From the NCBI RefSeq assembly GCF_000526155.1, contig NZ_JAFN01000001.1:3350264-3414263 (forward strand): a stretch of DNA of 64,000 bases, given 5' to 3'. Of this stretch, positions 6,990-37,185 are shown piece by piece. How positions within the stretch are numbered: position 1 is the first letter of the stretch; every line of letters starts with the position of its first letter. The translations under genes were made by a program, and so were the position numbers. The notes under the pieces are model-generated. The model ran no database searches. It was not told where the DNA came from and saw only the letters and a program-made list of their open reading frames with translations. Source of the stretch: Deferrisoma camini S3R1. Its GTDB lineage: Bacteria > Desulfobacterota > Deferrisomatia > Deferrisomatales > Deferrisomataceae.

Positions 6990-7068
6990 TCCCTCCCCTG
7001 TCGGCCGCCAGGGTTCCGTGGTAAGAGGAACCGACGGACCCCTTGCCTTCTCCCAGGAACGATTCCCG

Positions 7069-19423: not shown

Positions 19424-19480
19424 TCTCGCCACGGGCGGCATCAACAGTGTCGGGGGGCGCTGCGGGCTCGCCTTCCAGCC

Positions 19481-22183
19481 TCAAGCCCCGTCCAGAACTC
19501 GCCGAAGGGCCCCTGAGAGGGATGCCATGCTGATGGGCTTTGCCAAGACGACCGCAGGGGCACCGATTCCTTTCCGGCGCAGTTCGTGTTCGCTGATGGG
19601 CTGTCCGGAGCACAAGATCACCGGAACGTTTGGCTGTGCGGAGCGAGCTTGCCGGATGAGCTCCAGCCCGGTCACCTCAGGCATCATAAGGTCCACGAGG
19701 AGCACGTCGAATTTGTCGGGGTCGCGTTGCAAGATCTCGAGGGCTTGTGTTCCGTTTTCGACGCCCAGCACCTGATATCCCAACTCTCCGAGGATGTAGG
19801 CCAGCATGTCGACGATCGCCCGTTCGTCGTCCACCAGCAGAATGCGTTCCCGCCCACGCCGAAGGCGGGGCCCCTCCAAGGGTGTGCCCGAGCCGTAGGG
19901 TTTTCCCCGTAGGAGGGGAAGGTACACATCGAAACGGGCCCCACTCCCCTCCTGACTCGTCACGGTGATCGCTCCCCCCATCTCCTCTACGATTCTTCTC
20001 ACGTTCGCAAGGCCCATGCCCGTGCCGCCCTGGTGCCTCTTGGTGGTAAAAAAAGGCTCGAAGATCTTTGGCAGGATCTCGTCGGGAATCCCGGGCCCCG
20101 TGTCCGCGACCCAGAGACGGGCATAGGAGTGCGCCTGCGCCGGGGGGGCGGGCAACGACGGCAAATCATCCGCGGGGACGGATTCCAAGCCGATCTCCAC
20201 GGATCCCTTTCCTTTCAAGGCTTGCACAGCGTTCACGCAGAGGTTCATTACGATTTGGTGAATTTTTGTGGGCTCCGTTTGTATCGTTGCGTTTGCGACC
20301 CGAATGCTTTCGTTCAGTTGTATGGTGGCAGGGAGGCCGGAGCGCATGAATTTCACCGCTTCCTTGACGAGAGGTGCCAGATCCATGGGTCTTGGCTCCC
20401 CCCCGGTATCTCTGCTGAAAGAAAGAATCTGCTTTGCCAGATCAGCGGCCCGCTCGGCAGCCCGTACGATTTCACGAGCGTTGCTTTTAAGTGGGCTGTT
20501 GGGTGGGAGGTGATACTCCAAGATCTCTGCATGGGCGAGAATGGGGGTGAGTAGGTTGTTGAAATCGTGCGCCACGCCACCTGCCAGAACCCCAAGGCTC
20601 TCCATTCTCTCGGCTTGCTGCAGGCGCTCCTCGAACTGTCTGCGGTGTTCTGCTTCCTTTTTCTCTTCCGTCACGTCGATCAAAAAGCCTAGGAGCCGCC
20701 GCGATCCATCGTGGTTCTTGAACACCGTGGTCAAATTCAGAAACCAGCCCACCGCGCCATCAGGCTTCACGATGCGATACTCCACGCGCGCACTCCGGTC
20801 CTCCTGAATGGCTCGCCGAATCGAGGCCAAAGCCTGACGCCGGTCCTCCGGGTGCACCTTGCGCAGCCACGAGTCCAGACCGGTCCACGTCTCCGGGGGG
20901 TACCCCGTGATCAGCGCGGCCTGAGGCCCCACGTACGTGAACTTTTCCTTCTCGAGATCGAACTCCCAAGGCACGGCATGCGTGTGCTCCACCAGCGTGC
21001 GGAAGATCAGGTCTTTTCGCCGTTGTGTTTCCTCTTCACGCTTTTGCCGAGTGACGTCCCGCACGATGCCCACGACGCCGCGAATCCGCCCCTGGGGGTT
21101 CCGTCGGGGGGTGAATGTGCCCGAGACCCAGGTCTCGGGGCCGGTTCCCGGGCGGGAGTACCGGACGAAGTTGACGGAGACCTCGTGACCTTCAAGCGCT
21201 TTGCGCATCTGCGCCGCGAGAGACTTTCCGCCCGGACCCAGCACGTCCTCCACGGACGAGCCCAGCGCTCGTTCTGCCGACACCCCAGTACAGCGCTCCA
21301 TCGCGGGATTCCAGATCTGGCAACGGAGCTGTTCGTCCGTGACCACGATACCTTCCCCTGCGCTGTCCAGGATCTGTTCCTGGAGCCGAAGCAGGTCCCG
21401 GAGCTGGCGCTGCCGTTCCGCATGTTCCGTGATGTCTCGGAGGACCATCAGGCTTGGGGGCGGACCCTTTTCCGGTTCGCCAGGAGCGGGTAGCGGCACC
21501 CGAAGCAGGTGGTACGTTCGTTCCTCCCCGGTACGCAGCGACACCATAGCCTCGCCAATCTCCACATCGTTGGGGGGGCCAAACATATCCGGACACCAAG
21601 GGCACATCTCCCCCATGTTGAACAAGGCCTTGTGGCAGGGGTCTCCCGTGGCATCTCGGCCTAAGTGCCGGACCAGGGCGGGGTTCATGTACTCGATCCG
21701 CCGGCCGGGTGAACAGATCAACACGAAGTCCTGCATGCCCTCCAGGATTGCGCGGTACCGCGCCTCGCTGGCCTGGAGCTCGGCCATCATCTGGTGCCAT
21801 CGAGTCATGTCCCGGAACGACAGCACCCAACCGCCTTCGGGAAGGGGGGCTGCGTACCCCTCGGCGACGAAACCATCGGCTCTGGGGGTCTCCAAGGAGA
21901 CGAGGGGGGCACAAGAATCCAAGTCGGCCAGTCGCCGGGCCACCAGTTCCTCTTCCCGCTCCCTTGGGTACACCCCGTTTCGGCACGCCCACCGGATGCA
22001 ATCTTCGATGCGGGGCTTTTGCCGCAAGAACTCGGTCGGGAACCCCCACATCTCTTGGTATCGGCGGTTGTAGTAGATCACACGGCGGTCCTCATCGAGC
22101 ACGACGATGGCCCGTTCCGCGTGATCCAACGCCTGGATGAGGGAGGCCAAAAAGGGCTGGCTGGAGTGCGGCAAGGTTTGCAT
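19481..22183 (-). CDS. Hybrid histidine kinase with multiple PAS domains and a C-terminal receiver
   Basis: 900 residues from the ATG at 22183, chosen because GGAGG lies five bases upstream; a longer frame to 22318 has no such site. Four PAS-like domains occupy about residues 10-500 ([55 protein letters not shown]; the last carries [17 protein letters not shown]). The second contains a cysteine pair CPWCPDMF typical of PAS sensors in this group. The kinase core has [14 protein letters not shown] (His near 538), [18 protein letters not shown] and [10 protein letters not shown]. The receiver has [10 protein letters not shown] (Asp near 830). It is cytoplasmic and transcribed away from the receiver/winged-helix cluster, a likely partner. 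The base composition looks less GC-rich than its neighbours. Confidence 0.9.
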
Positions 22184-22425
22184 CGGCACCTCCATGTCGG
22201 TTCTGGGGTGAAAGCCTCCCGCCATGGGCTCTCCAGCGCCCACCCACCGGCGGCAACCTCGCAACGATCTCGGCGACCACCCGGGTTTTTCATCCCTTGC
22301 GATGGACACCCCGTCCATGGGGTACGCGGACCGTCCCTGCCGGCGCTTAGTGTTCCGGAAAAGGGATACCTAGGAAATCGGCCCGGCTCCCGTGTGCCTC
22401 CAGCCGGGATGTTCAAAGGAATGGA

Positions 22426-22451
22426 TTTTTGTTCGGCAAAACGAACAAAAA
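22426..22451. promoter_or_regulatory. Perfect 10-bp inverted repeat between divergent signalling genes
   Basis: TTTTTGTTCG and CGAACAAAAA flank the six-base loop GCAAAA. It lies in the 380-base spacer 22184-22563 between the hybrid kinase and the receiver gene; nothing else is recognisable there. It could be an operator for one of the regulators beside it or a two-way terminator. The divergent setting favours an operator. Confidence 0.5.
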
Positions 22452-22563
22452 GTGGTTGTCTGACCTGCCATTCCCTTGGGGGCAGATGAAACGGGGTCGA
22501 ACCATTAGAACAAAACCTGCTGAGATAGCAAATTCGCACGGTGCCGAAGCGAGGAGTTCCCCC

Positions 22564-22989
22564 ATGGCGCGGCCGCTGCGGGTATTGGTCGTAGACGACG
22601 AACCAGCCATCCTTCGAACCCTCCGGTTCTGTCTGGGACGAGAAGGGTTTGCCTGCGAAACCGAGACCGATCCACACAGGGCTCTCCGGCGGGTCCGGAC
22701 CGAACCCTCCGTACACATCCTCCTGACCGACATCGTCATGCCGGGGATGGACGGGATGACGCTGTTGCGGGCTCTGCGGGAGTCTGGGGCGTTGACGCAA
22801 ACGATCGTCATGACCGCATACAGCCGGCCGGACCGTGTCCTGGATGCGTACCAGCTAGGGGCTCTCGACTACCTGGTGAAACCGTTCGAGAGCTTGGACG
22901 AGGTGGTTCGGGTCGTCCGAAATGCAGAGCGCCGGTACCTCCGTTGGCAGAAGGCCGTGGAACGGACCCTGAAAGGAGAGGGGCGGTGA
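22564..22989 (+). CDS. Single-domain response regulator (receiver)
   Basis: 141 residues from the ATG at 22564, with GAGGAG upstream. It is a receiver with acidic pocket VVDDEPAI, phospho-acceptor in ILLTDIVMPGMDGMTLL, Thr in VMTAYSRP, and the Lys in YLVKPFESLDE. About 20 basic residues follow the domain and there is no output domain. It overlaps the winged-helix gene by four bases (GTGA), so the proteins are probably made in step. It may receive phosphate from the divergent hybrid kinase. Confidence 0.9.
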   Translation: MARPLRVLVVDDEPAILRTLRFCLGREGFACETETDPHRALRRVRTEPSVHILLTDIVMPGMDGMTLLRALRESGALTQTIVMTAYSRPDRVLDAYQLGALDYLVKPFESLDEVVRVVRNAERRYLRWQKAVERTLKGEGR

Positions 22990-23555
22990 ACCTTGAGCAC
23001 GTTTTAGGCAGTCCGGCCAGGGTCCGGGTCCTGCGGGCCCTGTTTTCGAAAGACGGTATGTCCGGCCGAAGCATCTCGGCCCGAGCGAGGGTGTCCCCTT
23101 CCTCGGGCAAGGCTGCCTTGGACGAACTGGTCTTTTGGGGGATCGTCTTGAAGGTGCCGTCCGGCAAGCGCCATCTGTACGAGCTGAACCAAAGCCACGT
23201 GTTCACCCCGGTGCTGTCCGAGCTGTTCGCCGTGGAGCGCCGATTGCTCTCTCGGATCGCCAAACGGGTGGCCCGGGCGCTGGGCCACGGCTCCCCGGGG
23301 GGAGTGCGGGGAGTCGGAGTGGATCGAGCCGGGCGGGCGGTCCTGCTCCTGGCCCCGCCGCTGCCTGGGAAACAAGAGAGCCAGCGGATCGAACGGCTGC
23401 TTTGGTTTTCCTTCGGGCTTCGTCTGGCTGCGCTCACCACCGACCCGGAAGAGATGCGCGGCTTGGATCATGTCTGGATCGCCGAGGCGGGAGCGGCGCG
23501 GAAACCGGACGAGGCGGTAAGAGAGTTGATTCGCTTTTTCGATCTTTCGGAGTGA
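22986..23555 (+). CDS. Winged helix-turn-helix regulator
   Basis: 189 residues from a GTG at 22986 that overlaps the receiver stop. The N-terminal half is a winged helix (VLGSPARVRVLRALFSKDGM, SARARVSPSSGKAALDELVF, GIVLKVPSGKRHLYELN). The C-terminal half (GVGVDRAGRAVLLLAPPLPG ... TDPEEMRGLDHVWIAEAG) resembles the degenerate nucleotidyltransferase-like fold often attached to such winged helices, but the catalytic acidic pair is not seen. It is the only DNA-binding protein between the kinase genes and the chemosensory genes, and so a candidate output of that system. Confidence 0.75.
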   Translation: MNLEHVLGSPARVRVLRALFSKDGMSGRSISARARVSPSSGKAALDELVFWGIVLKVPSGKRHLYELNQSHVFTPVLSELFAVERRLLSRIAKRVARALGHGSPGGVRGVGVDRAGRAVLLLAPPLPGKQESQRIERLLWFSFGLRLAALTTDPEEMRGLDHVWIAEAGAARKPDEAVRELIRFFDLSE

Positions 23556-23560
23556 GCACC

Positions 23561-24922
23561 ATGGACGCGCGTCCGGAAAAACAAACGAACGGGGCGGCCG
23601 CCAACCCCGCTGGAGGGGCGGCGTTTCGGATTCTGGTGGCGGACGATGAAGCGTCCCTGCGAAACGCCATGGCCCGGAGCCTGGAGGCTTTGGGTCACGA
23701 GGTGGTTTCGGCGGCCGACGGTTTGGAGGCGTGGATGCGGTTTCACGAAGCCCCCTTTCCGATCGTGGTGGCCGATATCCGCATGCCTGGGCTGACCGGC
23801 ATCGAGCTGCTGGAACGCATCCGCAACGAAAAGCCCGACACAGAGGTCGTGTTGGTCTCTGGGTTCGGCGATACCGGTGTGGTGATCGAAGCGCTTCGCC
23901 ACGGTGCAACCAACTTCGTCGAGAAGCCATTCAGCGAGTCGGAGTTCCTTCGGCAGATGGAACCGGCGTTCCAGCGGTGCGGGTTGGCGCTGGAGAAGGC
24001 CAGGTTGCAGCAAGAGCTCTCAAAACTCCGAGAGAGGGAGGAGAGGGAACGGCGGATGGCCGCATTGGGACGGCTTCTTTCGGGGCTCGCCCACGAGATC
24101 CATAACCCCCTGACGTTTATCAAGGGAAATGCGGAGTTGCTCGAGAGGTTCTGCCAGGAGACACGTAAGGGGTTGTCGGAAGGGGCGCTTCCTAACGAGG
24201 TGGCTGTCGCTGAGATGCTCGGTCTAGTGAAGGACCTGCGGCACGGGATCGAACGCATAGAGAGCATGGTCGAATCGGTGCGGCTTTTCGGAGGCCGTCC
24301 CCTGTCGTTCTGTCGGGAGGCGAAGCTGTCGGAGATCATGCGACTGTCTTTTCGGGAGGCCCTATCCAAAAAGCCGATCGGGGTGGCCGCAGATCTCGTC
24401 CCGCCGCCGGATTCCTTTTTGGTGGAGGTCAATGAAACGGAGATGGAGAGCTGCTTCGTGAATCTGCTGGTGAACGCGTTCGAGGCCGCTGCGTGCGGAG
24501 GGGGCTCGGTTCGTTTCTATACGCGGGAGATCCCGTACGACACGGACGAGTTTTTTGGGTTCGTGGAGATCGTGGTGGAGGACGACGGGCCGGGCATCCC
24601 CCAGGCCATCGTCGACGAGGTGTTCACACCGTTTTTTACCACGAAGCCGGGGGGCACCGGCCTGGGGTTGAGCGTCGCGTACGAGGCTGCCAAGCGCAAC
24701 GGGGCCCAGGTGGAGATCGACAGCGAAGAAGGAAAGGGAACCACCGTGACCGTGCGCCTGCCGTTCCGGCTTGCCAAGGAAGCGAGAGATGTTCGAAAAA
24801 CAGAACAAAAAAGCCGTGTTTTGCCGGCAGCACCCTCAAGGGGAGCAGCCGGTCGCTCGATCCGACCAACAAAGCGTGCGCACAAAAAGGGTTCCTCGCC
24901 CAGACATTCGCCAAAGGAGTGA
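23561..24922 (+). CDS. Receiver-histidine kinase hybrid
   Basis: 453 residues from the ATG at 23561, five bases after the winged-helix stop. The receiver comes first ([20 protein letters not shown]; Asp in [19 protein letters not shown] near 71; Lys in [12 protein letters not shown]), then a coiled coil ([18 protein letters not shown]). The kinase core has [16 protein letters not shown] (His near 177), [18 protein letters not shown] and [18 protein letters not shown]. The C-terminal 45 residues are basic and disordered. Receiver-first kinases usually relay a phosphoryl signal from another kinase. It is followed after four bases by the soluble chemoreceptor, so it is part of the same transcript. 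Confidence 0.9.
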
Positions 24923-24926
24923 TGCG

Positions 24927-26840
24927 ATGGGTCTGAAAAAGCACGCCACACCGCGTTCCGACACAGCGTCCAAACCGACATCGTCCCCGGCTGCCAAGCG
25001 GGAGGCAGAGGAGCGGCGGCGCCGGGCGCGCACCCTGGCCAAGCAGCAGCAGGCGGCGGAACGAATCTCGTCGGCGTCCACACAGCTCGCGAGTGCGATC
25101 GCCGAGGCGGTGGCCGCCCAAGAAGAGCTGAACCGGTCGATGGAACAGATCGCGGGGGGCGCCGAAGAGGCCGCAGGGGCTTGCCAGGAGAGCCTCGCGG
25201 CCATGAACCAGGTGGCCGGCCGCCTGAAACAGCAGGGCGAGGTGGCGGAGCTGTCCCGAAAAAAGAGCACGGAGCTCCAGGAGCTTTTGGACCGGGTGGG
25301 GGCAGAGGTCACCACCCTGGTGGAGAACGTGAAGGCCGGGGCCAAACGTCAGATGGCCTCGGTGGAGCGGATGGGCGAGCTCGAGAAACAGGCCGAGCGC
25401 ATCACCGAGGCGGTGAAGGCGGTCATGCGCATCGCGGATCAGACCAACCTGCTCGCCCTGAACGCGGCCATCGAGGCGGCCCGGGCCGGTAAGCACGGAA
25501 AGGGGTTCGCCGTGGTGGCCGACACCGTGCGGGGGCTTGCGGAGACCTCCGCCAAGAACGCGGCCGACATCGCAGACCTCATCGAGAAGGTCCAGGCGAA
25601 CACCCGGACCGTGTCCGAGGGGGTCAGGGCCGCGGCCGAGACCGCTCGAGCCGAGGTGGAAAAGGGCGGTGCCGTGACCGAGCAGCTCTCTAAAATCAAG
25701 GCGGACATGGAGGGGATTCGCGCCGGCGCCGATGAGATCGCCCAGGCCGCTGCCGAGGCGGCCACGGCCGGGGTGCAGGCCCAGAAGGGAACCGAGCAGA
25801 TCGCTGCCGCGGCCGAGGAGCAGTCCTCGGCATGCCAGGAATGCCTGAAGAGCCTGGATCAGCAGGCCCAGGCCCTGAGCGAGAGCGAGAAGGCGGCCCA
25901 GGAGCTCGAGGAGCTGGCAGAAGAGCTCAAGAACAGCACCGACATCGCCAAGAGTGCCGAGGAGGTGGCCGCGGCGGCCGAGGAGCTGTCGGCTGCGGTG
26001 GAGGAGATCAACCGGGCCTCGGATGAGATCCTGACCGCGATCGAGCAGATCAACCGGGGCGCCGAGCAGCAGGCTTCGGCTGCGGAAGAGGCCGTGGCCG
26101 GGATCACCCAGATCGAGAAGAGCACGGATCTTGCGGAGGCCAAGGCCCGACAGACCGTGGCCACCTGCGAATCCGTCGCCGAGCTCGTGGCCGAGAACAA
26201 GGCGAGCGTCGAGGAGATGATCCAGGGGATCCGCGAATCCGCAGAGACCGGCCGCAGAAACCTTGCCGCGGTCCGGGAGCTGGAGGTGCTGAGCCGGCGG
26301 ATCGACAAGATCGTGGACGGCATCGCGACGGTGGCGATCCAAACGAGCATGCTGGCCGTCACCGGAGCGGTGGAGGCTGCGCGGGCCGGTGAGTTCGGAA
26401 AAGGGTTCGCTGTGGTTTCCACCGACATCCAGAACCTGGCCAGCGATGCAGCCGAGAACGCCGAGCAGATCAAGGACCAGGTGAAGGCCATCCAGGATCT
26501 GGTGACTGTGGTGAGGGCCGAGCTGAACCAGATCGCCGACGTCGCCCTGGCCGAGGCCGACAAGGCCCAGGCGGTGAGCGAGAACCTCGTGGTCGTGGAG
26601 GCGGAGACCGACCAGGTTCTCAAGGGAAACCGGCAGGTGCTCGACGGCGCGGCCGAGATCGCCACGGCGGTCTCCCAGGCGAAGAAAGGGATGGAGCAGA
26701 TCAGTGCGGCAGCGGAGCAGGCCAGCCAGGCCACCGGCCAAGCTGCGGCTGCCGCCCGCCAGCTGTCCCAGGGCGCCGAGGAGCTCTCGGCAGCGATCGA
26801 GGAGATCGCCTCGACCGCGGACGAGCTCCAGACCGCCTGA
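24927..26840 (+). CDS. Soluble chemoreceptor with two tandem signalling hairpins
   Basis: 637 residues from the ATG at 24927 with AAAGGAG upstream. There is no membrane span, no periplasmic domain and no ligand domain. It is nearly all heptad coiled coil. A canonical hairpin tip is at about 168-205 ([19 protein letters not shown] then [16 protein letters not shown]). A second, degenerate tip about 300 residues later ([19 protein letters not shown] then [15 protein letters not shown]) shows an internal duplication. Methylation-type Glu/Gln pairs flank both tips, such as [12 protein letters not shown] and [12 protein letters not shown]. It would form cytoplasmic arrays with CheA and CheW. The second tip has lost the conserved LLALNA core, so it may bind a different CheW domain. 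Confidence 0.9.
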
Positions 26841-26885
26841 TCGGACGGATCCACACGACACTCCACGGCATGGCGGAGGCAACCG

Positions 26886-28487
26886 ATGGAACCAGCGGCA
26901 CGCATGCCCACCGGAGAGGGCCTGGGGGACTCGTTGGGCGAGGCGCAAGACCCCTCGTGCGATGACGGAGCCGTCCGGCAGTACGTGACCTGTCTCCTGG
27001 GGGAGGAGCGCTTCGCCTTCCCGATGGAGTCGGTGCTGGAGATCGTGCGTCTTCCGGAGACGGTGAGGGTCCCCCTTGCTCCCCCCAGCCTGAAGGGGCT
27101 CGCGAATCTACGGGGAACCGTGCTGCCCGTGGTGGACCTGCGGGGGCTTCTGGGCCTTCCCGGGGTGGAGCCCACCGACGCAACCCGGGTGGTGGTGATC
27201 GACTGCTCCCGGCCGGCCGGGTTGGTGGTGGACCGGGTCGAGCGGGTGCTGAGCGTGGAGGGGGATAGGGTCGAGCCCGCCACCGATGTGTCTGTGACGG
27301 TGGACTCAGCGCTGTTGGCCGGGGTGATCCGGTCTGAGGAAGACGGAGCCCTGATCCAGCTTCTGGACGGCCGCGCCCTCGTGGGGAGGGAGTTCGAGGC
27401 GTTTTGCGGGCCTTGCGACGGCGGCCTTCAGCCGGCGGCGACGGCGGCCTCGGCGCGGCCTGCCGGAACGGCCGAGGAGCCCGAAGACGACGGTTGGCAG
27501 TTGGTGAGCTTCGAGGTGGACGCCGAGGAGTACGCCTTCGATATCGCCGAGGTCCGGGAGATCGTCCGGGTGCCGGACGAGATCAGCCGGGTGCCCGGAG
27601 CCGGGGAGCACGTGCTCGGAATCATAGACCTCAGGGGGAGGGTGCTGCCGCTGGTGAGCCTGCGGCGCCTGTTCGGCTTGGCCGACGCGCCGGTGGAGGA
27701 GCACAACCGGATCTTGGTTGTGGGACTCGCCGAGGGAGATCGGCAGGTCACGGTAGGGATGGTGGTGGACCGGGTCCACGAGGTGTTCCAGGTCGGCGCG
27801 GATGCCCTGGATGAGGTGCCGGAGCTGTTGGCGAAGCAGGGCGTGGAGGGCGTCCAGGCCTTGTGCCGGTTGGAGGGAGGGAGGCGGCTCGTCTCGCTGT
27901 TGAGCGCGGAAGCGTTGTTCCAGCATCCGGCGGTGAAAGAAGCGGTGGAGACCCACGGGGAGGATGCGATGCAGACGGAAGAACGAGGGAGCGCCTCGGG
28001 GGCGGAGGAGAAGGAAGAACTTCAGTTCGTGGTGTTCCAACTCGCGGGTCAGGAATACGGGGTGGGCATCGAGTGGGTCCAGGAGATCATCTGGGTGCCG
28101 GATCAGATGAGCCACGTGCCGAAGGCGCCCGAGTTCATCGAGGGAATGGTGAACCTTCGCGGGACGGTTCTGCCGGTGGTGGACATGCGCGCCCGTTTCG
28201 GGCTCGAGCGGATGGAACGAAACGACCGGCAGCGGATCCTGGTGCTGAACCTCGACGGCACGCGCACCGGTTTCGTGGTGGACGCCATGAGCGAGGTGCT
28301 GCGGGTGCCCGCCCGGGCCGTGGAGGAGGCTCCCCGGCTGTCGGAGGACCAGGCGCGCATCATGGGCCGGGTGGTGAACCTGAAGGAACAGGGCCGGATG
28401 ATCCAGGTGATCGAAGCGCGCGAGCTGTTGGAGGCCGACGAGCGAGAGGCCGTGGCCCGGGCGGCCTCCGAAGAGGCCGCCGCGTAA
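26886..28487 (+). CDS. cheW: Triple CheW-domain coupling protein
   Basis: 533 residues with GGAGG seven bases before the ATG. Three complete CheW domains lie in tandem at about 30-165, 204-345 and 378-520. Each has the pattern of a first strand (VTCLLGEERFAFPM / VSFEVDAEEYAFDI / VVFQLAGQEYGVGI), a GxxNLRG or IDLRG turn (LANLRGTVLPVVDLR / GIIDLRGRVLPLVSLR / GMVNLRGTVLPVVDMR) and a VVDRV or VVDAM strand. The linkers are Ala/Glu-rich. Ordinary CheW has a single domain of about 150 residues, so this one could bridge several receptor tips. It follows the tandem receptor by 45 bases. Confidence 0.93.
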   Translation: MEPAARMPTGEGLGDSLGEAQDPSCDDGAVRQYVTCLLGEERFAFPMESVLEIVRLPETVRVPLAPPSLKGLANLRGTVLPVVDLRGLLGLPGVEPTDATRVVVIDCSRPAGLVVDRVERVLSVEGDRVEPATDVSVTVDSALLAGVIRSEEDGALIQLLDGRALVGREFEAFCGPCDGGLQPAATAASARPAGTAEEPEDDGWQLVSFEVDAEEYAFDIAEVREIVRVPDEISRVPGAGEHVLGIIDLRGRVLPLVSLRRLFGLADAPVEEHNRILVVGLAEGDRQVTVGMVVDRVHEVFQVGADALDEVPELLAKQGVEGVQALCRLEGGRRLVSLLSAEALFQHPAVKEAVETHGEDAMQTEERGSASGAEEKEELQFVVFQLAGQEYGVGIEWVQEIIWVPDQMSHVPKAPEFIEGMVNLRGTVLPVVDMRARFGLERMERNDRQRILVLNLDGTRTGFVVDAMSEVLRVPARAVEEAPRLSEDQARIMGRVVNLKEQGRMIQVIEARELLEADEREAVARAASEEAAA

Positions 28488-28520
28488 CCCGGTTCGAGCC
28501 GATCCATGGGAGTTGGGAGC

Positions 28521-29654
28521 GTGAAGCACAAGATCTTGGTGGTCGACGACTCCGCATTGATGCGCAAGTACCTGCGCCAGATGCTGGAGACCCAGGACGA
28601 CTTCGAGGTCCACACGGCAAGGGATGGGGAGGACGCGCTGCGTCAGATCCGGGAACTCGACCCGGACGTGGTGACCCTGGACATCAATATGCCGGTGATG
28701 GACGGGCTGACCTGCCTCAGCCACATCATGACCGAGTTCCCCCGGCCGGTGGTGATGGTGTCGTCCCTTACCGAGAAGGGAGCTCTGGCCACGTTCGAGG
28801 CCCTGGAGCTGGGGGCCGTGGACTACCTGCCCAAGCCGGACGGTACGGTCTCGCTTCGCATCAAGGATCTGACGGACGAATTGGTCGCCAAGGTGAGGGC
28901 GGCGCTGCGGGCCAAACGGCGTCCCCGCCGCAAGACCAGGGCGCGGGAGGAGGGGCTTCCGAAGCGTTCGGTTGGGGGACGAGCCTCACCCAAAAGTTCC
29001 ACCAGGCCCTCGACGGCCAGCCCGGCGGAGTGGGCGGCAGCGGAGGAGGGCGTCGTGTTGATCGGGGTCTCCACCGGCGGACCGCGCACGCTGGAGGAGA
29101 TCCTGCCGGAGCTCCCTGCTGATTTCCCCTTGCCAGTATTGGTAGCCCAGCACATGCCCGGCAAGTTCACCCGGGTGTTTGCCGAGCGCTTGAACCGGCA
29201 GTGTGCGCTGCGGGTGGCCGAGGTGGGGGGGCCGACCCCCCTGGAGCCGGGGACGGCGTGGATCGCTCGGGGGGACGCCGACGTGGTGGTGAGCCGCCGG
29301 AAGGGCCGCCTGGTGGCCCTGAGCGTTCCGGCGGACGAGCGTTTTTTGTGGCATCCCAGTGTGGAGCGAATGGTGCGTTCCGCTTTGGACCACGTTCCGC
29401 CGGAGCGCCTGATCGCGGTGGAGCTGACCGGCATGGGCAACGACGGCGCCGAGGCCATGGCCGAGGTGCACCGTCGGGGAGGGCGGACCGTGGCCGAGTC
29501 GGAGGAGACGGCGGTGGTTTTCGGGATGCCCCGGGAGCTGATCGAGCTGGGCGGCGCCAGCGCGGTGCTGCCGGCCGACCAGATCGCCGAGCAGCTCGTG
29601 GAGTGGGCTCTCGGACAGTCTCCGGCCGAAGGCCGCGGCGCCGCTCGCGCCTGA
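28521..29654 (+). CDS. cheB: Chemotaxis response regulator protein-glutamate methylesterase
   Basis: 377 residues if translation begins at the GTG at 28521, which has GGGAG eight bases upstream; an ATG at 28506 is in frame but has no ribosome site. Residues 3-120 are the receiver (ILVVDDSALMRKYLRQML, Asp54 in VTLDINMPVMDG). A basic Ser-rich linker leads to the methylesterase domain with Ser in GVSTGGP, His in VAQHMPGKFT and Asp in TGMGNDGAEAM, the full catalytic triad. It removes methyl groups from receptor glutamates when phosphorylated by CheA. Confidence 0.95.
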   Translation: MKHKILVVDDSALMRKYLRQMLETQDDFEVHTARDGEDALRQIRELDPDVVTLDINMPVMDGLTCLSHIMTEFPRPVVMVSSLTEKGALATFEALELGAVDYLPKPDGTVSLRIKDLTDELVAKVRAALRAKRRPRRKTRAREEGLPKRSVGGRASPKSSTRPSTASPAEWAAAEEGVVLIGVSTGGPRTLEEILPELPADFPLPVLVAQHMPGKFTRVFAERLNRQCALRVAEVGGPTPLEPGTAWIARGDADVVVSRRKGRLVALSVPADERFLWHPSVERMVRSALDHVPPERLIAVELTGMGNDGAEAMAEVHRRGGRTVAESEETAVVFGMPRELIELGGASAVLPADQIAEQLVEWALGQSPAEGRGAARA

Positions 29655-29670
29655 CCGAAGGGGGAACGCC

Positions 29671-30303
29671 ATGGCGCTCGTCAAGCGTACCGAAGATCGG
29701 ACGGCTCCGTCCAAGCCCCACATCCGTAAGTACGACAGGGACCTACAGGGGCTCTTGGCACAGCTCCAGGACGAGCAGGTCAAGGCGCGAAGGTGGGCCG
29801 CGCGAGACCTGGCTGCCCACCCGGAAGCGGTGAGCGCCCTCTGTGACCGGCTCCAAGCAGAGCCGGACCCGACGGTGCGAGAGGCGATCTTCGGAAGCCT
29901 GCTGACGATCGGAACCGATGCGGTGGCCGAGGGGTTGATCCCGTTGCTCCGGAGCGAGGACGCAGGGCTTCGCAACGGCGCGGTGGAGATCCTGCGGCAG
30001 CTTCCGGACGCGGTGGGCCATCGCATAGCCGCCCTGCTGGCGGACCCGGATCCGGACGTGCGGATCTTCGCCGTGGACATCCTCCGGGACCTGGCCCACC
30101 CGGAAGCCCCGGGGTGGCTGCTCGCGGTGGTGGAGACCGACGAGCACGTCAACGTGGTCACCACGGCGATCGACCGCTTGGCCGAGGTGGGGACCCCCGA
30201 CATGGCCCCGGCGATCCAGGGGGTCAAGGACCGGTTCCCCGGTGAGCCCTTTGTCGGGTTCGCCGTGGACACCGCCCTGAAACGTATCCTGGGAGAGGGG
30301 TGA
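29671..30303 (+). CDS. HEAT-repeat protein of the chemosensory cluster
   Basis: 210 residues, AAGGGGG ribosome site. After a charged N-terminal 35 residues it consists of HEAT/PBS-lyase-like helical pairs (VKARRWAARDLAAHPEAVSA, PTVREAIFGSLLTIGTDAVA, AGLRNGAVEILRQLPDAVG, PDVRIFAVDILRDLAHPEA). Such repeats bind proteins. It lies between cheB and cheR with three bases to cheR, so a role as scaffold or adaptor of the array is likely, but no partner is known from sequence. Confidence 0.8.
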   Translation: MALVKRTEDRTAPSKPHIRKYDRDLQGLLAQLQDEQVKARRWAARDLAAHPEAVSALCDRLQAEPDPTVREAIFGSLLTIGTDAVAEGLIPLLRSEDAGLRNGAVEILRQLPDAVGHRIAALLADPDPDVRIFAVDILRDLAHPEAPGWLLAVVETDEHVNVVTTAIDRLAEVGTPDMAPAIQGVKDRFPGEPFVGFAVDTALKRILGEG

Positions 30304-30306
30304 CCC

Positions 30307-31173
30307 ATGGGGCACAGCGGGGTGGCACGCGAGTCGGCATCCGACGTCCGCATCACGGACGCGGAGTTCGAGCGGTTCCGGGACTACTTCTACCGCAAGA
30401 CCGGAATCCGCTTCGAGGACTCCAAGCGCTACTTCGTGGACAAGCGCCTGATCCAGCGGATGCGCCAGACGGGCCACGAGAGCTTCCGGGAGTACTTCGC
30501 GTTCATGCGGTTCCAGGCCTCGGGCGAGGAGTTCCAGGAGCTGGTGAACCTCATGACCGTCAATGAGACGTACTTCTTCCGGGAGGAGTACCAGCTCAAG
30601 TGCATGGTCAACGCGCTCCTGGCCGAGGTGCTCCACCACAAACGCACCGGGGAGACCGTGAGAATCTGGTCCGTGCCGTGCTCCACGGGGGAGGAGCCCT
30701 ACTCGATCGCTCTGTATCTGCTGGAGTTCTGGGACCGGATCGACGAGGTGGACGTGGAGATCGTGGCATCCGACATCGACACCCAGGCCTTGGAGAAGGC
30801 CCGGGCGGGGGTGTTCTCCCGGCGGTCGGTGAGCCACCTGCCCCGCTGGATCCTGGAGAAGTACTTCGAACCCCTGGCCGGCGGGTACCACCGGCTATGC
30901 GACGACCTGCGGGCCAGCGTGGATTTCCGCCGGGTCAACCTCTGCGATCCCAAAGACACCCGGGGAATGCGGGACTTCGACATCATCTTCTGTCGGAACC
31001 TGCTGATCTATTTCGACGATGCGTCCCAGCGGCGGGCCGCGGAGACCCTGTACGACGCGTTGAACCCGGGAGGGTTCGTGCTCCTGGGGCACTCGGAGTC
31101 CATGAGCCGGATCACCTCGCTGTTCAAGGTGCGCCGGTTCGAGGACGCGATCGTCTATCAGAAGCCCCTCTAG
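30307..31173 (+). CDS. cheR: Chemotaxis protein-glutamate methyltransferase
   Basis: 288 residues. The N-terminal helical domain (FERFRDYFYRKTGIRFEDSK) is followed by the SAM-binding domain with NETYFFREEYQ, WSVPCSTGEEPYSIAL, ASDIDTQALEKARAGVFSRR, FDIIFCRNLLIYFD and LLGHSES, all typical of CheR. It methylates receptor glutamates with S-adenosylmethionine. No TPR extension and no pentapeptide-binding feature is obvious. The soluble tandem receptor is the likely substrate. Confidence 0.95.
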   Translation: MGHSGVARESASDVRITDAEFERFRDYFYRKTGIRFEDSKRYFVDKRLIQRMRQTGHESFREYFAFMRFQASGEEFQELVNLMTVNETYFFREEYQLKCMVNALLAEVLHHKRTGETVRIWSVPCSTGEEPYSIALYLLEFWDRIDEVDVEIVASDIDTQALEKARAGVFSRRSVSHLPRWILEKYFEPLAGGYHRLCDDLRASVDFRRVNLCDPKDTRGMRDFDIIFCRNLLIYFDDASQRRAAETLYDALNPGGFVLLGHSESMSRITSLFKVRRFEDAIVYQKPL

Positions 31174-31201
31174 CGCTACGGCCGGAACGGAAGGATCGGG
31201 C

Positions 31202-31579
31202 ATGAGACGAGCACTGATCGTGGACGATGCCGTCACGGTTCGCATGTACCACCGCCAGATCCTGGAGGGGGCCGGGTTCGAGGTGGACGAGGCCGAGAAC
31301 GGTGTGGAGGCCTTGGAGAAGGCGTTGGTGACCTCCTACGACCTGCTGCTGGTGGACGTGAACATGCCCAAGATGGACGGGTACACGTTTCTGAAGGAGG
31401 TCCGGGGCACCCCCGAGCTCCGGGCGGTCCCGGCGATCATGATCAGCACGGAGGCCGAGCGGCGGGACAAGGAACAGGCGTATCGGGCCGGGGCCAACCT
31501 GTACCTGGTCAAGCCGGTCCGGCCCGAAGCCCTAGCGTTACGGGCCACCCTGATGACGGCCCGGGGAGGGAGCCGATGA
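31202..31579 (+). CDS. cheY: CheY-like response regulator (first copy)
   Basis: 125 residues. All receiver residues are present: IVDDAVTVRMYHRQIL, Asp in LLLVDVNMPKMDGYTFLKE, Ser/Thr in IMISTEAERRDK, Lys in YLVKPVRPEAL. Its stop overlaps the cheA ATG by four bases, so CheA is the obvious phosphodonor. It may act as the output or as a phosphate sink; a second CheY is found downstream of cheA. Confidence 0.93.
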   Translation: MRRALIVDDAVTVRMYHRQILEGAGFEVDEAENGVEALEKALVTSYDLLLVDVNMPKMDGYTFLKEVRGTPELRAVPAIMISTEAERRDKEQAYRAGANLYLVKPVRPEALALRATLMTARGGSR

Positions 31580-34029
31580 ACCCGCTGCTGGCCGAGTTCA
31601 TCACCGAGACCCGGGATCTCCTGGAACAGGCGAGCCAGGGGTTTCTCGCCCTGGAAAAGGCTCCCGGCGACCCTGAGACCCTCAACGGGCTGTTCCGGGC
31701 CATGCACACCATCAAGGGGTCGTCGGGGTTCTTCGAGATCGGGCCGCTGACGCGCCTCGTGCACGCCGCCGAGGACGTACTGGACGCCGTTCGGCAGGGG
31801 GAACTCGACCTCACGCCGGACCGGGTGGACCTGTTCTTCGAGGTGCTGGATCGGGTCGGTGAGTGGGTGGACAGCCTGGAGGCCGAGGAGCGGCTCCCCC
31901 CGGAGGCCGAGGATGTGAGCAACGGCCTCGCAGGGCGCCTGAGGGGACTGTTGTCCGAAGCAACGGACGAAGAGCCCTCGGGGGCCGGCGATGCCGTGGC
32001 GGAAGAGGGGGACGCCGAAGACGAGAGGTCTGCATGCGAAAAGGTGGGAACGGCTCCCTCATGGATCCTGGAGGTCCCCGACGACATACGGCGAGAGCTG
32101 TACCAGATCAGCATCGAGGGCGGGCCGGGCGCGGTGGCCGTGACCTACACCCCGGACGAGCAGTGCTTTTTCGCCGGAGACGATCCGTTTCACACGGCCC
32201 GCCAGACCCCGGGCCTCCGCTGGGGGCGGGTGCAGACCCGGGAGCCGTGGCCTCCACCCGAGGAGCTCGACCCGTACCGCTGCGTGCTCCGGTTCCGCCT
32301 GGTGGCGGCCGCCCCGGTGGAGGAGGTGCGGGAGTGGTTCCGGTACGTGATGGACCAGGTGGAGCTCTACGAGGTCGCCCCAGAGGACTGGGGGGTCCCG
32401 GCCGGCGGGCCGGAGGAGGGGGGCTCCGGGCCGACAGCGAACGACGAAAAGGGTACCCGGTCCCCGGGAGGGAGTGAGCCGGGCGGGCCGGAGGACGAGC
32501 CCCTTGCCGCGGCGGTGGAGATCCTGCGGGCCCAGACCGAGCTTCTGGCCGCCCCGTGGGACCCGGACATCCGTTTGGGGGTGCTGGAGTCGGTCGCCGG
32601 GGTGCTGGGGTCGGTCTTGACGGAGTTGGGGGATGCGGCCGGCGAGGAGCGCGTTGCCGAGGCCTTGGAGACGGCCCGGGCCCAGGGGAGCGGGGAGCCG
32701 CTGAGGGCCTTGGCTCTGGATGTCCTTTCCCGCCTTTTGGGGGCGGAGAAGATGCAGCAGGAAGGGGCGGGGGTGGAGCCGGCTCCCCAAGCAGATGGGC
32801 CGGCCCCGGAGCGGTCGCCCCAGGAGAACGGAACGGCCTCGGGCCAGAAGATCCGGGTTCTCAAGGTGGACCAGGCCCGGATCGACGCCTTGATGGACCT
32901 GGTGGGGGAGCTGGTTGTGGCCAAAAACGCCCTGCCGTTCCTGGCCCGAAAGGCGGAAGAGGTGTTCAAGGTCCGGGATCTGGCCCGGGAGATCAAGAAC
33001 CAACACGCCGTCATCAACCGGATCGCGGAAGAGCTGCAAGGCGCCGTGATGCAGGTCCGGATGGTGCCGGTGTCCCACGCGTTCCAGCGCTTCCCCCGGC
33101 TGGTCCGCGACTTGTCTCGCAAGTTGGGCAAGAAGGTGCGGCTGGTCATGGAAGGGGAGGAGACCGAGGCGGACAAGAACGTGGTGGAGGACCTGGCCGA
33201 GCCCCTGGTCCATTTGGTCCGGAACAGCATCGACCACGGGATCGAGACTCCGGAGGAGCGGGAGGCTGCGGGCAAGCCGCCCGAAGGGGAGATTCGGCTG
33301 CGGGCGGTGCAGTTCGACGACCAGGTGTGGATCGAGGTGATCGACGACGGCCGGGGCATGGACCCGGAGGTCCTCAAGCGCAAGGCCTACGAGAAGGGCA
33401 TCCTGAGCGAGGAGCGGCTGGAGACGATCACGGACGACGAGGCGCTCCACCTGATCTTTGCGCCGGGGTTCAGCACCGCCGAGCAGGTGTCGGACGTGTC
33501 GGGCCGGGGCGTCGGCATGGACGCCGTGCGGGCCATGGTGGACCGGGTCGGGGGATCGGTATCCGTGCAGAGCACGCTGGGTCGGGGGACCCTCATCCGA
33601 TTGTCCTTGCCCCTGTCCATGGCCGTGACCCGGGTGATGATCGTGGAGGTGGGGGGCGAGACCCTGGGCGTTCCCATCGAGAACATCGTCGAGACGGTGC
33701 GGGTCCCCACGGACGAGATCCACCGGATCAAGCGCCACGAGGCGGTGGTGCTGCGGGACCGCCTGGTTCCCCTGTGCCGGCTGGGCCGGGTCCTCGATCT
33801 CGGGGGCGACGAGGCCGGGCCGGGCGAGGAAGAGGCCGTTCTCGTGGTGTCGATCGACGGAAGGGAGCTCGGGCTGGTGGTGGACCGGTTCCACGAAGGG
33901 GTGGACATCATCCTGAAACCCCTCGAGGGGATCATGGCGGGGTTTCGGCTCTACGCCGGCACGGCGCTCCTCGGCGACGGTCGGGTGCTCCTGGTGCTGA
34001 ATCTGAGGGAGTTGGTGGCATGCCTGTGA
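31576..34029 (+). CDS. cheA: Chemotaxis histidine kinase CheA
   Basis: 817 residues. P1 HPt domain with His44 in RAMHTIKGSSGFFEI. At about 165-270 in place of a normal P2 lies an unusual domain (VPDDIRRELYQISIEGGPG ... CVLRFRLVAAAPVEEVREWF), followed by acidic linkers. The dimerisation helices precede KNQHAVINRIAEELQ. The kinase core has VHLVRNSIDHGIETPEER, DDGRGMDPEVL and GRGVGMDAVRAMV. The CheW-like P5 domain is at the C-terminus (GGETLGVPIENIVETVRVP). It autophosphorylates under receptor control and feeds CheY and CheB. Its last ten bases overlap a small STAS-like gene. Confidence 0.95.
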   Translation: MNPLLAEFITETRDLLEQASQGFLALEKAPGDPETLNGLFRAMHTIKGSSGFFEIGPLTRLVHAAEDVLDAVRQGELDLTPDRVDLFFEVLDRVGEWVDSLEAEERLPPEAEDVSNGLAGRLRGLLSEATDEEPSGAGDAVAEEGDAEDERSACEKVGTAPSWILEVPDDIRRELYQISIEGGPGAVAVTYTPDEQCFFAGDDPFHTARQTPGLRWGRVQTREPWPPPEELDPYRCVLRFRLVAAAPVEEVREWFRYVMDQVELYEVAPEDWGVPAGGPEEGGSGPTANDEKGTRSPGGSEPGGPEDEPLAAAVEILRAQTELLAAPWDPDIRLGVLESVAGVLGSVLTELGDAAGEERVAEALETARAQGSGEPLRALALDVLSRLLGAEKMQQEGAGVEPAPQADGPAPERSPQENGTASGQKIRVLKVDQARIDALMDLVGELVVAKNALPFLARKAEEVFKVRDLAREIKNQHAVINRIAEELQGAVMQVRMVPVSHAFQRFPRLVRDLSRKLGKKVRLVMEGEETEADKNVVEDLAEPLVHLVRNSIDHGIETPEEREAAGKPPEGEIRLRAVQFDDQVWIEVIDDGRGMDPEVLKRKAYEKGILSEERLETITDDEALHLIFAPGFSTAEQVSDVSGRGVGMDAVRAMVDRVGGSVSVQSTLGRGTLIRLSLPLSMAVTRVMIVEVGGETLGVPIENIVETVRVPTDEIHRIKRHEAVVLRDRLVPLCRLGRVLDLGGDEAGPGEEEAVLVVSIDGRELGLVVDRFHEGVDIILKPLEGIMAGFRLYAGTALLGDGRVLLVLNLRELVACL

Positions 34030-34277
34030 CGTACAAGAAGACCGTAGCGGTCCTTGAGGGGGTGTGCACGGTGGAGGAAGCCGAGTCGCTCCTGGGATGG
34101 CTCCAGGAGCACCCGAAGGGCAAGGTGAACCTGAAGAAATGCGAGCACCTGCACGCCGCGGTGCTCCAGGTGCTCATGGCTGCGGGACCGGATGTGTCGG
34201 TCTGGCCGGAGGACCCGGGTTTGCAGGGATGGATCGAGACGGCCCTGGCAGGGAGGGGCGCCCAGGCGAGAAAGTAG
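34020..34277 (+). CDS. Small STAS-like protein coupled to cheA
   Basis: 85 residues: the ATG at 34020 lies inside the end of cheA in another frame (ten-base overlap) and the stop is at 34277. The sequence [20 protein letters not shown], then [20 protein letters not shown], has the beta-alpha pattern of a STAS domain (as in anti-sigma antagonists), with [12 protein letters not shown] in the place of the usual DLSxVxxIDSSG loop. No phosphorylatable Ser is seen at the exact site; a Cys and His are there instead. Such proteins bind partner kinases or arrays. The overlap indicates a fixed ratio to CheA. Easy to miss because it lies within a longer out-of-frame stretch. Confidence 0.75.
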
Positions 34278-34361
34278 GCGCACTTCGTCAGCGGGCGGGG
34301 CACGGGGCCCGTTGCTGGAGGCCGTCGTCCACGGAACTCCGGAGGAGGGAGGGAAGAGATC

Positions 34362-34733
34362 ATGAAGACGATCTTGTTGGTGGACGATTCCAGCACGCTG
34401 CGGATGAGCATGACCTCGATTCTCTCGAAAGCCGGGTACCAGGCCGAGGAGGCTCCGAGCGCGGAGCACGCTTTGGACAAGCTGAAGTCCGGTCTCAAAC
34501 CGAACCTCATCATCACCGACCTGAACATGCCGGGGATGGACGGGATCGGCCTGATTCGGGAGGCGCGCAAGCTTCCGGGCCTACGGTTCACCCCCATCCT
34601 GATGCTCACCACGGAGTCCCAGCAAGCCAAGCGCCAAGAGGCGCGGGCGGCCGGGGCGACCGGCTGGTTGGTGAAACCTGTTGCGGCCGAAGACCTTCTC
34701 AAGGTGATCAAGCAGGTCGTTCCCGGCGCGTAG
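34362..34733 (+). CDS. cheY: CheY-like response regulator (second copy)
   Basis: 123 residues with a strong GGAGGAGGG ribosome site. Receiver features: [17 protein letters not shown], Asp in [19 protein letters not shown], Thr in [13 protein letters not shown], Lys in [14 protein letters not shown]. It resembles CheY proteins of alternative-function chemosensory clusters more closely than the first copy does. It lies between the STAS-like gene and the membrane receptor. Confidence 0.93.
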
Positions 34734-34783
34734 AGAGTGGCTTGCGACACCTTTCCCCTGACCCCGAACACACAGAGGTTCCG

Positions 34784-36043
34784 ATGGACCGAGTGGATCC
34801 CCGCGCTCACGTGCTGATGACGCGCCGGACAACGTGGTGGATGGGAGCGCTGCTCCTCGGGGTGTCCGTGTGCGAAGTGGTAGCCCAAGGATGGACCGAT
34901 CTGGGGAGCCCTTCGACCCACGGGGCCGTCAAGGGGTGGCTGGGGCTCCTGACCGCCGGGTTGGCTGGGGGGGTAGGAAGCCTGCTCGTGGCCGCGGCGA
35001 TGCGGGATGCACAGGCCCTCAAAGAGTGTGTGCGAGCACAAGAGGACGCGCGTTGCTGGCGGGAGGTGGTGGACGCGATCCTGGGCTCATTGGATGCGTA
35101 CGCTAGGGTTCGGGGGATTCTTCGAGGACAACTGGAAGGAGTGAGCGAGATCACCGAGGAAGCAGCCCGGGACATCGTGGAGCGGCTCCAACGCTTGGAC
35201 ACTCTGGTGCGGGAGATGACGGTCCGTATCCAGACCGCCATGGAAGAGATCGAATCGTTGGCGGTGCAGGTTCGGGAAAACCGCGAGCGGGATCTGGAGG
35301 TGCTCCGGAGCATGCAGGCGTATCTAACAGGCCGGCATCAGGAGATGGAGGAGGAATGGCGTCGGGTGGAGCAGGTGTTGGCCGAGGCGGAGGAACTGCG
35401 CACGGTCACCGCCATGGTGAAGGATATCGCGGACCGGACCAACCTGTTGGCGTTGAACGCGGCCATCGAAGCGGCTCGGGTCGGACAGGCTGGGAAGGGG
35501 TTCGGTGTGGTCGCCGCGGAGATCCGGGCGCTGTCCCAAAAGTCGGCGGAGGCTGCGCGGAAGATCGAAAAGGGAATATCGGAGATGGTGGAGTCGGTGC
35601 GGGCCAAGTTCGCCCGCCAACTCGACGCCACGGCCCGGAAAAAGCAGATCCGGATGCTGGAGGAGGTGGGCACCGCCTTGACCACGGTCGGAGCCGCCTC
35701 TGCTGAGGTGCCGGCCGTAATTCAAGAGGTGCTGGATGCGACCCGGCGGACCAACGATGAAGTCGCCCGGGTGATCATGGACGGGTTGGCGAGCATCCAG
35801 TTCCAGGACATCACTCGCCAGCGGTTGGAGCAGGTGACGGGGGTGCTCGAACAAATGGATCACCACTCGGAGGTGCTGGTAGGATGCGGGCGAAGTGGTG
35901 ACGCGAAAGCGGTGCCGCCCTTCGATGTGGACGAGATTGCAGCGGGGTACACCATGCGCGGACAGCGAGCCATCCACCAGCAGGAGGGGGGCGCGGCACA
36001 AGACGTTTTGGAAGACGAGGGGCCCAAAATCGAGCTTTTCTAG
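34784..36043 (+). CDS. Membrane chemoreceptor-like protein with a CheZ-type DxxxQ motif
   Basis: 419 residues from the ATG at 34784 (AGAGG upstream). Two hydrophobic spans at about 17-36 and 52-71 have only a short loop between them, so there is no periplasmic sensor domain. A long coiled coil contains a hairpin tip ([37 protein letters not shown]). Beyond it, residues 338-350 read [13 protein letters not shown], with Asp342 and Gln346 spaced as in the catalytic Asp-Gln pair of CheZ phosphatase (DFQDLTGQ). The C-terminus is acidic and ends in KIELF, reminiscent of the CheY-binding tail of CheZ. It may combine receptor and CheY-phosphatase roles; that is inference. Confidence 0.8.
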
Positions 36044-36136
36044 AAAAGACGCTCGGGTGCGTGTAGGAAGGGGAACAGGGAGGGGCAGACGGAATGAGAA
36101 CGTTGTCCGTTCCCCCGCGCGGGAGGAGAGAGCGCG

Positions 36137-37144
36137 TTGCCAGGAGAGAGCCAAGAGGCTGAGCCACACGTTTCGGCGCTATCAGAGGCCGCCCGGCAGA
36201 CGGCGAAGTCGATCCGAACGCAGGTGTGGGTGATGGCCGGGGGGCTCTTGCTCGTCATCGGCGCTTCGTTGGGGTGGAATCTGTGGAGCGTCGAGAAGCA
36301 CGCCAGAGGCCTGGAATGGGAGGCTGCCCGGAGCATTGCGGATACCATTGTGGCCATGCGGGCGTGGACGGCGAAGCAAGGGGGGATCTACGTACCGGTT
36401 TCCGATCGCGTACCCCCCAACCCGTACCTGAAGGTGGCAGATCGGGACGTGACCGACGACCGGGGCCGACGGCTCACCAAGATAAACCCCGCCTACTTGA
36501 CGCGGCTCGTGGCTGGAGAATTGCCGAGCCAGACGGGGATCGAGATCCGTTTGGTGAGCGACCGGCCCCTGCGGCCGGACAACCGCCCCCGGCGGTGGGA
36601 AGCAGAGGCGTTGGAGTTCCTGAAGACCCAAGGGGCAACGGAATGGGGGCAAGAGGAACTACGGCGGGACGGGCGCGTGGCGTTCCGGTATGTCAGGGCC
36701 TTGCCGGCCGAGGCTGCTTGCCTCAAGTGCCATGGGGCGCAAGGGTACCGCAAAGGAGATCTCAAGGGAGGGCTGAGCATCTCCCTGGACTACACATCGG
36801 CGTTTGAGGTGACCAGGGCACGCCAGGGGAGCCTAGCGATCTGGCACGGGACCATTGCCCTGGTGTGCCTGCTCGGCCTGGGATGGCTCGGCCGGAAGCT
36901 TGTCCGGAAGGCAGAGGTCGTAGAGGGCTTCGTTGCTCGCCTTCGGGTGTTGGAGGGGCTGCTCCCGATCTGCTCGAGTTGCAAGAAGATCCGCCTGGAG
37001 GGGAGGGCGGAGTCCGATCAGGATGCATGGGTGGAGGTGGAAACCTACGTCGGGGAGCACACCCACGCCCAGTTCTCGCACGGCCTGTGCCCGGAGTGTT
37101 TGGAACGGTTGTATCCGGAGTTTTCGCGGCGGCGAGGCGGGTGA
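36137..37144 (+). CDS. Membrane sensor with Tll0287-like haem domain and Cys-rich C-terminal tail
   Basis: 335 residues from a TTG at 36137 behind GGAGGAGAG. Membrane spans lie at about 30-50 and 232-252. Between them is a DUF3365/Tll0287-like domain (GIYVPVSDRVPPNPYLKVAD, TKINPAYLTRLVAGEL, EAACLKCHGAQGYRKGDLKG) with one CxxCH for covalent haem. This domain is known as a periplasmic PAS-like redox or gas sensor. The C-terminal tail (LLPICSSCKKIRLEG ... FSHGLCPECLERLYPEF) is a four-cysteine motif I know from the ends of receiver proteins in Desulfobacterota. No kinase or receptor domain is attached, so the output must pass through a partner, possibly the adjacent chemosensory array. Confidence 0.8.
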   Translation: MPGESQEAEPHVSALSEAARQTAKSIRTQVWVMAGGLLLVIGASLGWNLWSVEKHARGLEWEAARSIADTIVAMRAWTAKQGGIYVPVSDRVPPNPYLKVADRDVTDDRGRRLTKINPAYLTRLVAGELPSQTGIEIRLVSDRPLRPDNRPRRWEAEALEFLKTQGATEWGQEELRRDGRVAFRYVRALPAEAACLKCHGAQGYRKGDLKGGLSISLDYTSAFEVTRARQGSLAIWHGTIALVCLLGLGWLGRKLVRKAEVVEGFVARLRVLEGLLPICSSCKKIRLEGRAESDQDAWVEVETYVGEHTHAQFSHGLCPECLERLYPEFSRRRGG

Positions 37145-37185
37145 CGTCCGTCGCCAGGTTGATAGCCTTTCATCCGCCCAGCATC

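Follow-up and report, generated by a model that had tools for sequence, protein, structure and literature searches.

A stretch of 64,000 nucleotides of the Deferrisoma camini S3R1 genome (contig NZ_JAFN01000001.1, positions 3,350,264 to 3,414,263; referred to as the window) contains a block of 15 genes in 17.7 kb, in which the genes of a chemosensory array are preceded by those of a phosphorelay. The array genes encode DosM, a soluble receptor with two signalling domains, the triple CheW protein CheW3, the remaining Che proteins and a membrane receptor, and the phosphorelay genes encode a PAS hybrid kinase, a free receiver (REC1), a winged-helix protein (wHTH) and a kinase with an N-terminal receiver (RECHK). 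From six-frame open reading frames, a codon-usage gene finder and Pfam, all gene classes named in a preliminary description of the sequence were recovered at 19481-37144, from the hybrid kinase through to the haem sensor; for the STAS-like protein, the support came from a structure model (Table 1).

Table 1. Features of the chemosensory block, in window coordinates.
Feature	Position	Strand	Basis or remark
Island A (mobile block)	19435-37173		interval missing between the GapDH and TrkA-N genes in two sister species
Hybrid histidine kinase	19481-22318	-	several PAS, HisKA, HATPase_c, C-terminal receiver; Pfam
REC1, stand-alone receiver without output domain	22564-22989	+	Pfam, E=3.7e-25
wHTH, winged-helix protein, C-terminal part unrecognised	22986-23555	+	NCBIfam HTH_metalloreg, E=6e-6, under the family cut-off
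RECHK, REC-HisKA-HATPase, soluble	23561-24922	+	Pfam
DosM, soluble receptor, two tandem MCP signalling domains, 637 aa	24927-26840	+	Pfam MCPsignal, several stretches
CheW3, three concatenated CheW domains	26886-28487	+	Pfam CheW, 3 stretches, E=2.7e-96
CheB, receiver and methylesterase	28506-29654	+	Pfam
HEAT-repeat protein, starts MALVKR	29671-30303	+	Pfam HEAT_2, E=5e-22; synteny
CheR	30307-31173	+	Pfam
CheY1, stand-alone receiver	31202-31579	+	Pfam
CheA (Hpt, dimerisation, kinase and CheW domains)	31576-34029	+	Pfam; groups with other F9 in CheA tree
STAS-fold protein, 85 aa	34020-34277	+	AlphaFold and Foldseek
CheY2, stand-alone receiver	34362-34733	+	Pfam
Membrane receptor, VC1394-like in topology and place, C-terminus -IELF	34784-36043	+	Pfam MCPsignal; hydrophobic segment near residue 52
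Tll0287-like c-type haem (CLKCH) membrane sensor, four-cysteine C-terminus	36137-37144	+	Pfam, E=4e-20

The genes from REC1 to the membrane receptor are all read in one direction as a single run. The spacing between neighbours is -10 to +84 bp, and three pairs overlap, among them REC1 and wHTH (by 4 bp). The starts of REC1, wHTH, RECHK, DosM, STAS and the membrane receptor were re-chosen by reading frame and ribosome-binding context. The hybrid kinase is the only divergent gene of the block and is soluble, a scan for hydrophobic segments having found none. In all receivers, the conserved D/D/T-or-S/K residues were identified by eye. DosM contains neither a sensor domain nor a transmembrane segment and begins with MGLKK. 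The STAS-like gene product is weak in Pfam (E=0.06); however, an AlphaFold model built from 19 sequences reached a mean confidence (pLDDT) of 92.3, and its top Foldseek matches were RsbV, SpoIIAA and MlaB. For wHTH, the model has pLDDT values of mostly 80-92 over residues 11-70 and matches generic winged helices of the MarR, IclR and ArsR type; a winged helix is thus backed for the first ~70 residues only, the C-terminal half being modelled with low confidence. A fusion of wHTH to a degenerate nucleotidyltransferase was considered and found unsupported for this half. The G+C content at third codon positions (GC3) is 0.74-0.93 in the block, compared to mostly ~0.95 in the flanking genes.

The soluble receptor with two signalling domains and the triple CheW protein have been described as features unique to the chemosensory class F9 (PMC9321776). 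In the F9 reference, Vibrio cholerae cluster I, they are DosM (VC1403) and VC1402, encoded together with the CheA VC1397 and a 24H transmembrane receptor, VC1394 (PMC7534058). Since DosM and CheW3 are both encoded here, the array core is, with near certainty as far as gene content can tell, a complete class F9 system, and it adds a member to a class already known. Membership in the alternative cellular functions (ACF) or type IV pilus (Tfp) class, which the preliminary description had offered for comparison, does not agree with the gene content, given the F9-unique components and a window in which pilus genes were not recognised. In a CheA tree of 59 rows, the window CheA groups with those of other F9 loci, the widest grouping having moderate support (83-88); one row (L062) represents a mis-picked kinase and was disregarded. 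Three loci, L191, L192 and L194, encode DosM and multi-CheW proteins, yet their CheA falls outside the F9 group; they are possibly F9 hybrids. In V. cholerae, DosM and triple CheW hold together an F9 array that lies in the cytoplasm in two layers.

The order of the core, DosM-CheW3-CheB-HEAT-CheR-CheY1-CheA-STAS-CheY2-membrane receptor, was also identified in Marinomonas ostreistagni, in Allopseudospirillum japonicum, in gammaproteobacterial metagenome-assembled genomes, in 9 of the 391 genomes of the Marinomonas order when these were searched by CheA similarity, and in several genera of Desulfobacterota. With some genes lost, it is present on plasmids of Methylosinus, Eleftheria, Sphaerotilus, Methylobacterium, Azospirillum and Agrobacterium vitis. 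The range of this arrangement takes in plasmids and other Desulfobacterota as well as gamma-, beta- and alphaproteobacteria. The A. vitis locus (L204, NZ_AP023275.1) is an F9-type cluster without the HEAT gene on a conjugative plasmid, with IS6 elements nearby.

The block had been described as a self-contained island, and its bounds proved to be almost exact. Flank homology to a sister species (G001) ends at window position 19434 and restarts at 37174, and the GapDH and TrkA-N genes, which enclose the block in the window, are neighbours in G001 and in a second sister species, G002, and thus represent an empty site. In G001 all 15 genes are found elsewhere, at a second site, and G002 has 14 of them next to the flank that it shares with G001; this second site is empty in the genome of the window, so that empty sites are visible in both directions. 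The gene order of the block is kept in both sister species, which is taken to be more than chance. The hybrid kinase keeps its position there with 72-74% identity, and the REC1 orthologs are 78-81% identical. The c-haem sensor is present in two of the three species, with a G001 ortholog of 70%; on the G002 contig, a search downstream of the membrane receptor gave no match. An integrase was not found within the block.

A second F9 cluster of the same genome (copy B; L054 1765-14900, genome C1:2413764-2426900) has its own RECHK gene, and an open reading frame resembling IS66 TnpB lies upstream. In the stretch read, copy B has no hybrid kinase, REC1, wHTH or c-haem sensor. In both genomic copies RECHK lies immediately 5' of DosM, with ~60% identity between the two. 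Over 13.3 kb, copy B shows 98.4% identity between species, and the DNA flanking the window block (copy A) shows 90-98%, whereas copy A itself reaches only 72-85%. Copy A is therefore not explained by simple descent in place, but was exchanged or relocated with the kinases attached. An import from outside the genus was found unsupported, as copy A of all three species falls together in the CheA tree, with copy B as sister. By synteny and co-movement, the phosphorelay and array genes, which the preliminary description had placed in one run, behave as a single unit and not as unrelated neighbours. The hybrid kinase, REC1, wHTH and RECHK genes, together with the array genes, are on this sequence evidence regarded as one evolutionary unit, a relationship that is new here. 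The island is real and well bounded, belongs to F9, and with its co-moving phosphorelay represents a variant and not a new kind of system.

The closest known systems each share a part of this arrangement. V. cholerae cluster I (VC1394-VC1403), as far as compared by its published description, has DosM, triple CheW, CheB, CheR, two CheY, CheA and the transmembrane receptor in common with the block, to which the linked PAS hybrid kinase, RECHK, REC1, wHTH and c-haem sensor are added in D. camini. For the phosphorelay part, the model is Rhodospirillum centenum Che3, where a second kinase containing a receiver and a free receiver are likewise encoded with the che cluster. There, phosphorylation of one of its receivers by CheA3 inhibits CheS3, which in turn phosphorylates the free receiver CheY3, and the CheS3/CheY3 pathway controls cyst formation (PMC3868531), so that the output is development and not motility. 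In contrast to the window block, Che3 is assigned to ACF, its CheA3 has its own receiver, and the accessible part of the source describes no DosM or CheW3 for it. CheOp3 of Rhodobacter sphaeroides, with TlpT and PpfA, resembles the block in its soluble receptor array and most F9 clusters in its ParA-type gene; unlike the block, which is without ParA, it controls a flagellum, and the part of the literature available on it describes no DosM or CheW3. For Myxococcus xanthus Che7, a HEAT-repeat protein is tied to a che system with developmental output, yet DosM or triple CheW is not reported in the portion of the account at hand (PMC9040617). Che7 was considered as the closest relative on the basis of the HEAT protein and was set aside, because DosM and CheW3 point to F9.

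The layout of RECHK, with one N-terminal receiver followed by the histidine kinase, in the company of che genes and a free receiver, is that of CheS3. Signalling from CheA to RECHK is favoured because RECHK and REC1 have the Che3 layout and precede DosM, and because RECHK is retained in copy B. We tentatively propose, at somewhat less than an even chance, that the F9 array and its CheA act through a RECHK switch on a non-motility output by REC1 and wHTH, by analogy to the logic of CheA3, CheS3 and CheY3. The array would integrate internal signals through partner receptors, and CheA would pass phosphate to CheY1, CheY2 and CheB and also to the N-terminal receiver of RECHK, thereby switching this kinase. 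RECHK and the hybrid kinase would together set the phosphorylation of REC1, which, perhaps with wHTH, would produce a response to redox or energy state that is slow and probably transcriptional. All steps past CheA are ones that we infer. A redox input is hinted at by the c-haem sensor and the PAS kinase of the block and by the assembly of V. cholerae F9 clusters at low oxygen.

The combination of phosphorelay and array genes had been called unusual, which overstated the case. A clear kinase on the same strand (E<1e-20 with a profile built from the loci, inside the cluster or not more than 3 kb from it) was identified in 8 of 18 F9 lineages; among the other che lineages, the figure was 4 of 35 (Fisher p=0.013, exploratory). 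The cut-off was picked after two earlier versions of the count, the first of which had dropped true kinases through weak CheA matches, and no correction was made. The kinase arrangement recurs in F9, which speaks for the RECHK link, and does not suffice to define the class.

Several points weigh against a coupling of the array to the phosphorelay. The count depends on its threshold, since a looser E-value cut picked up CheA fragments and gave p=0.075, and the 35 control lineages were not phylogenetically matched. At the strict threshold, an adjacent kinase is absent from 10 of the 18 F9 lineages, so that a kinase partner is not obligatory for F9. Within the block, third-position identity between species is 0.49-0.58 for the phosphorelay arm (19481-24922) compared to mostly 0.66-0.86 for the array core (24927-34733), a gap that may point to a looser coupling of arm and core than their synteny implies. 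Finally, wHTH is without a receiver domain, and its C-terminal half matches no recognised fold.

The main rival to the proposed CheA-to-RECHK pathway is that the kinases, REC1 and wHTH act upstream, sensing starvation or low oxygen and controlling expression of the F9 operon without being targets of CheA. These genes are indeed at the 5' end of the operon, V. cholerae makes F9 arrays conditionally, at low oxygen and under carbon starvation (PMC9321776; low-oxygen assembly also in PMC7534058), and on the Eleftheria plasmid a kinase paired with a response regulator of the transcription-factor type is located directly 5' of DosM; A. vitis has such a pair a few kb upstream. However, REC1 has no DNA-binding domain, and the N-terminal receiver of RECHK is a phosphate input and not a sensor. 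The position is also variable, the kinases being at the 3' end of the cluster in L072 and L186, and inside it in L191 and L192, where a kinase and a REC1-like receiver are placed between CheB and HEAT. The relatives of REC1 in the latter two clusters are 40-44% identical, and a wHTH relative (28%) adjoins the L191 cluster upstream. Upstream control is on balance somewhat unlikely.

Ranked next is the explanation that the array serves motility: CheY1 and CheY2 would diffuse and tune flagella or type IV pili, as with the cytoplasmic array of Rhodobacter sphaeroides, and the kinases would be a side branch. The preliminary description had found no flagellar or pilus genes nearby, and this holds across the window proteins, in which none were recognised; elsewhere, the genome encodes both flagella and type IV pili, FlhA being located at C1:853370 and five PilT genes exceeding the family cut-off. 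FlhA is also present in all six genomes reached through relatives of the block, 97% of F9 species have full sets of flagellar genes (PMC9321776), and in Halobacterium a HEAT protein links Che to the motor (PMC2666748). On the other side, deletion of the F9 cheA in V. cholerae gave no detected phenotype, chemotaxis included (PMC7534058), the genome contains eight CheA loci, one of them ~27 kb from FlhA, as other candidates for motility control, and it carries two divergent F9 copies. Motility tuning is therefore regarded as unlikely. With flagella, type IV pili and eight CheA loci in the genome, the distance from motility genes is no proof of a role outside motility, and since the V. cholerae deletion is silent, the output of class F9, motile or not, is not established. 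The earlier suggestion of transcription rather than movement had relied on wHTH, which is indeed the only DNA-binding candidate of the block; given the motility genes elsewhere, the mostly flagellated F9 hosts, the missing receiver and the generic fold match, it is unproven.

That the kinase genes are passengers of a mobile F9 cassette, functionally tied to nothing in it, would agree with the differences in divergence and GC3 between arm and core and with the many F9 clusters without kinases, but is highly improbable given reading frames that overlap or abut in one run, an arrangement kept in three species despite a block identity of only 72-85%, and the retention of RECHK in copy B too.

The role of F9 arrays has been called unclear in the literature, where the V. 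cholerae cheA deletion shows nothing. Because the array is inseparable, by synteny and joint movement, from a few ordinary signalling proteins, the question of what F9 talks to is reduced to a short list of candidates.

The F9 loci examined also share accessory features, which provide handles on assembly and positioning. A HEAT gene between CheB and CheR and a STAS gene after CheA are near-universal among them; neither is named in the F9 papers PMC9321776 and PMC7534058, although by gene order VC1400 and VC1396 would be the candidate HEAT and STAS proteins of V. cholerae. Most F9 clusters examined contain a ParA-family gene, which either separates STAS from CheY2 or follows the membrane receptor gene; ParA genes within che operons had earlier been reported for cytoplasmic receptors (PMC2829493). 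The window block has no ParA homolog, the best other ParA in the genome being 36% identical, and in copy B broken pieces between STAS and CheY2 are the only ParA remnants. A group of Desulfovibrio loci (L073-L079) represents a different che type, CheB-HEAT-CheR-ParA-CheW-CheY-CheA with two Hpt domains in CheA, which has HEAT and ParA too.

An N-terminal tag, M-[AGPST]-[LI]-(V)-[KR], was identified in 22 of 28 DosM and 22 of 24 HEAT proteins, compared to 6 of 201 products of other cluster genes. In the window it lies at 24927-24965 (DosM) and 29671-29688 (HEAT), with homologs across L070-L204. By analogy to TlpT and PpfA (PMC3964821), we infer that this tag may contact ParA. The membrane receptors end in IELF in the full-length relatives read, from most F9 loci (window 36027-36043). 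This motif resembles, but differs from, the W/F pentapeptide for CheR and CheB, and as a sequence feature is possibly a docking tail. A wider reading would make F9 the sensory front end of ordinary phosphorelays, in which DosM, CheW3 and CheA commonly drive a REC-kinase and free receiver, the MALVKK-type tag of DosM and HEAT docks a ParA-family ATPase, and the whole travels as a mobile cassette; as such it is doubtful.

In the surroundings of the block, window positions 4233-9628 encode a large multihaem c-type cytochrome, after which come a PAS kinase and a sigma-54 activator of the NtrC type. An IS630-type transposase (DDE_3/HTH_33) with a low GC3 of 0.78 is located at 53198-54103, 16 kb downstream of the island.

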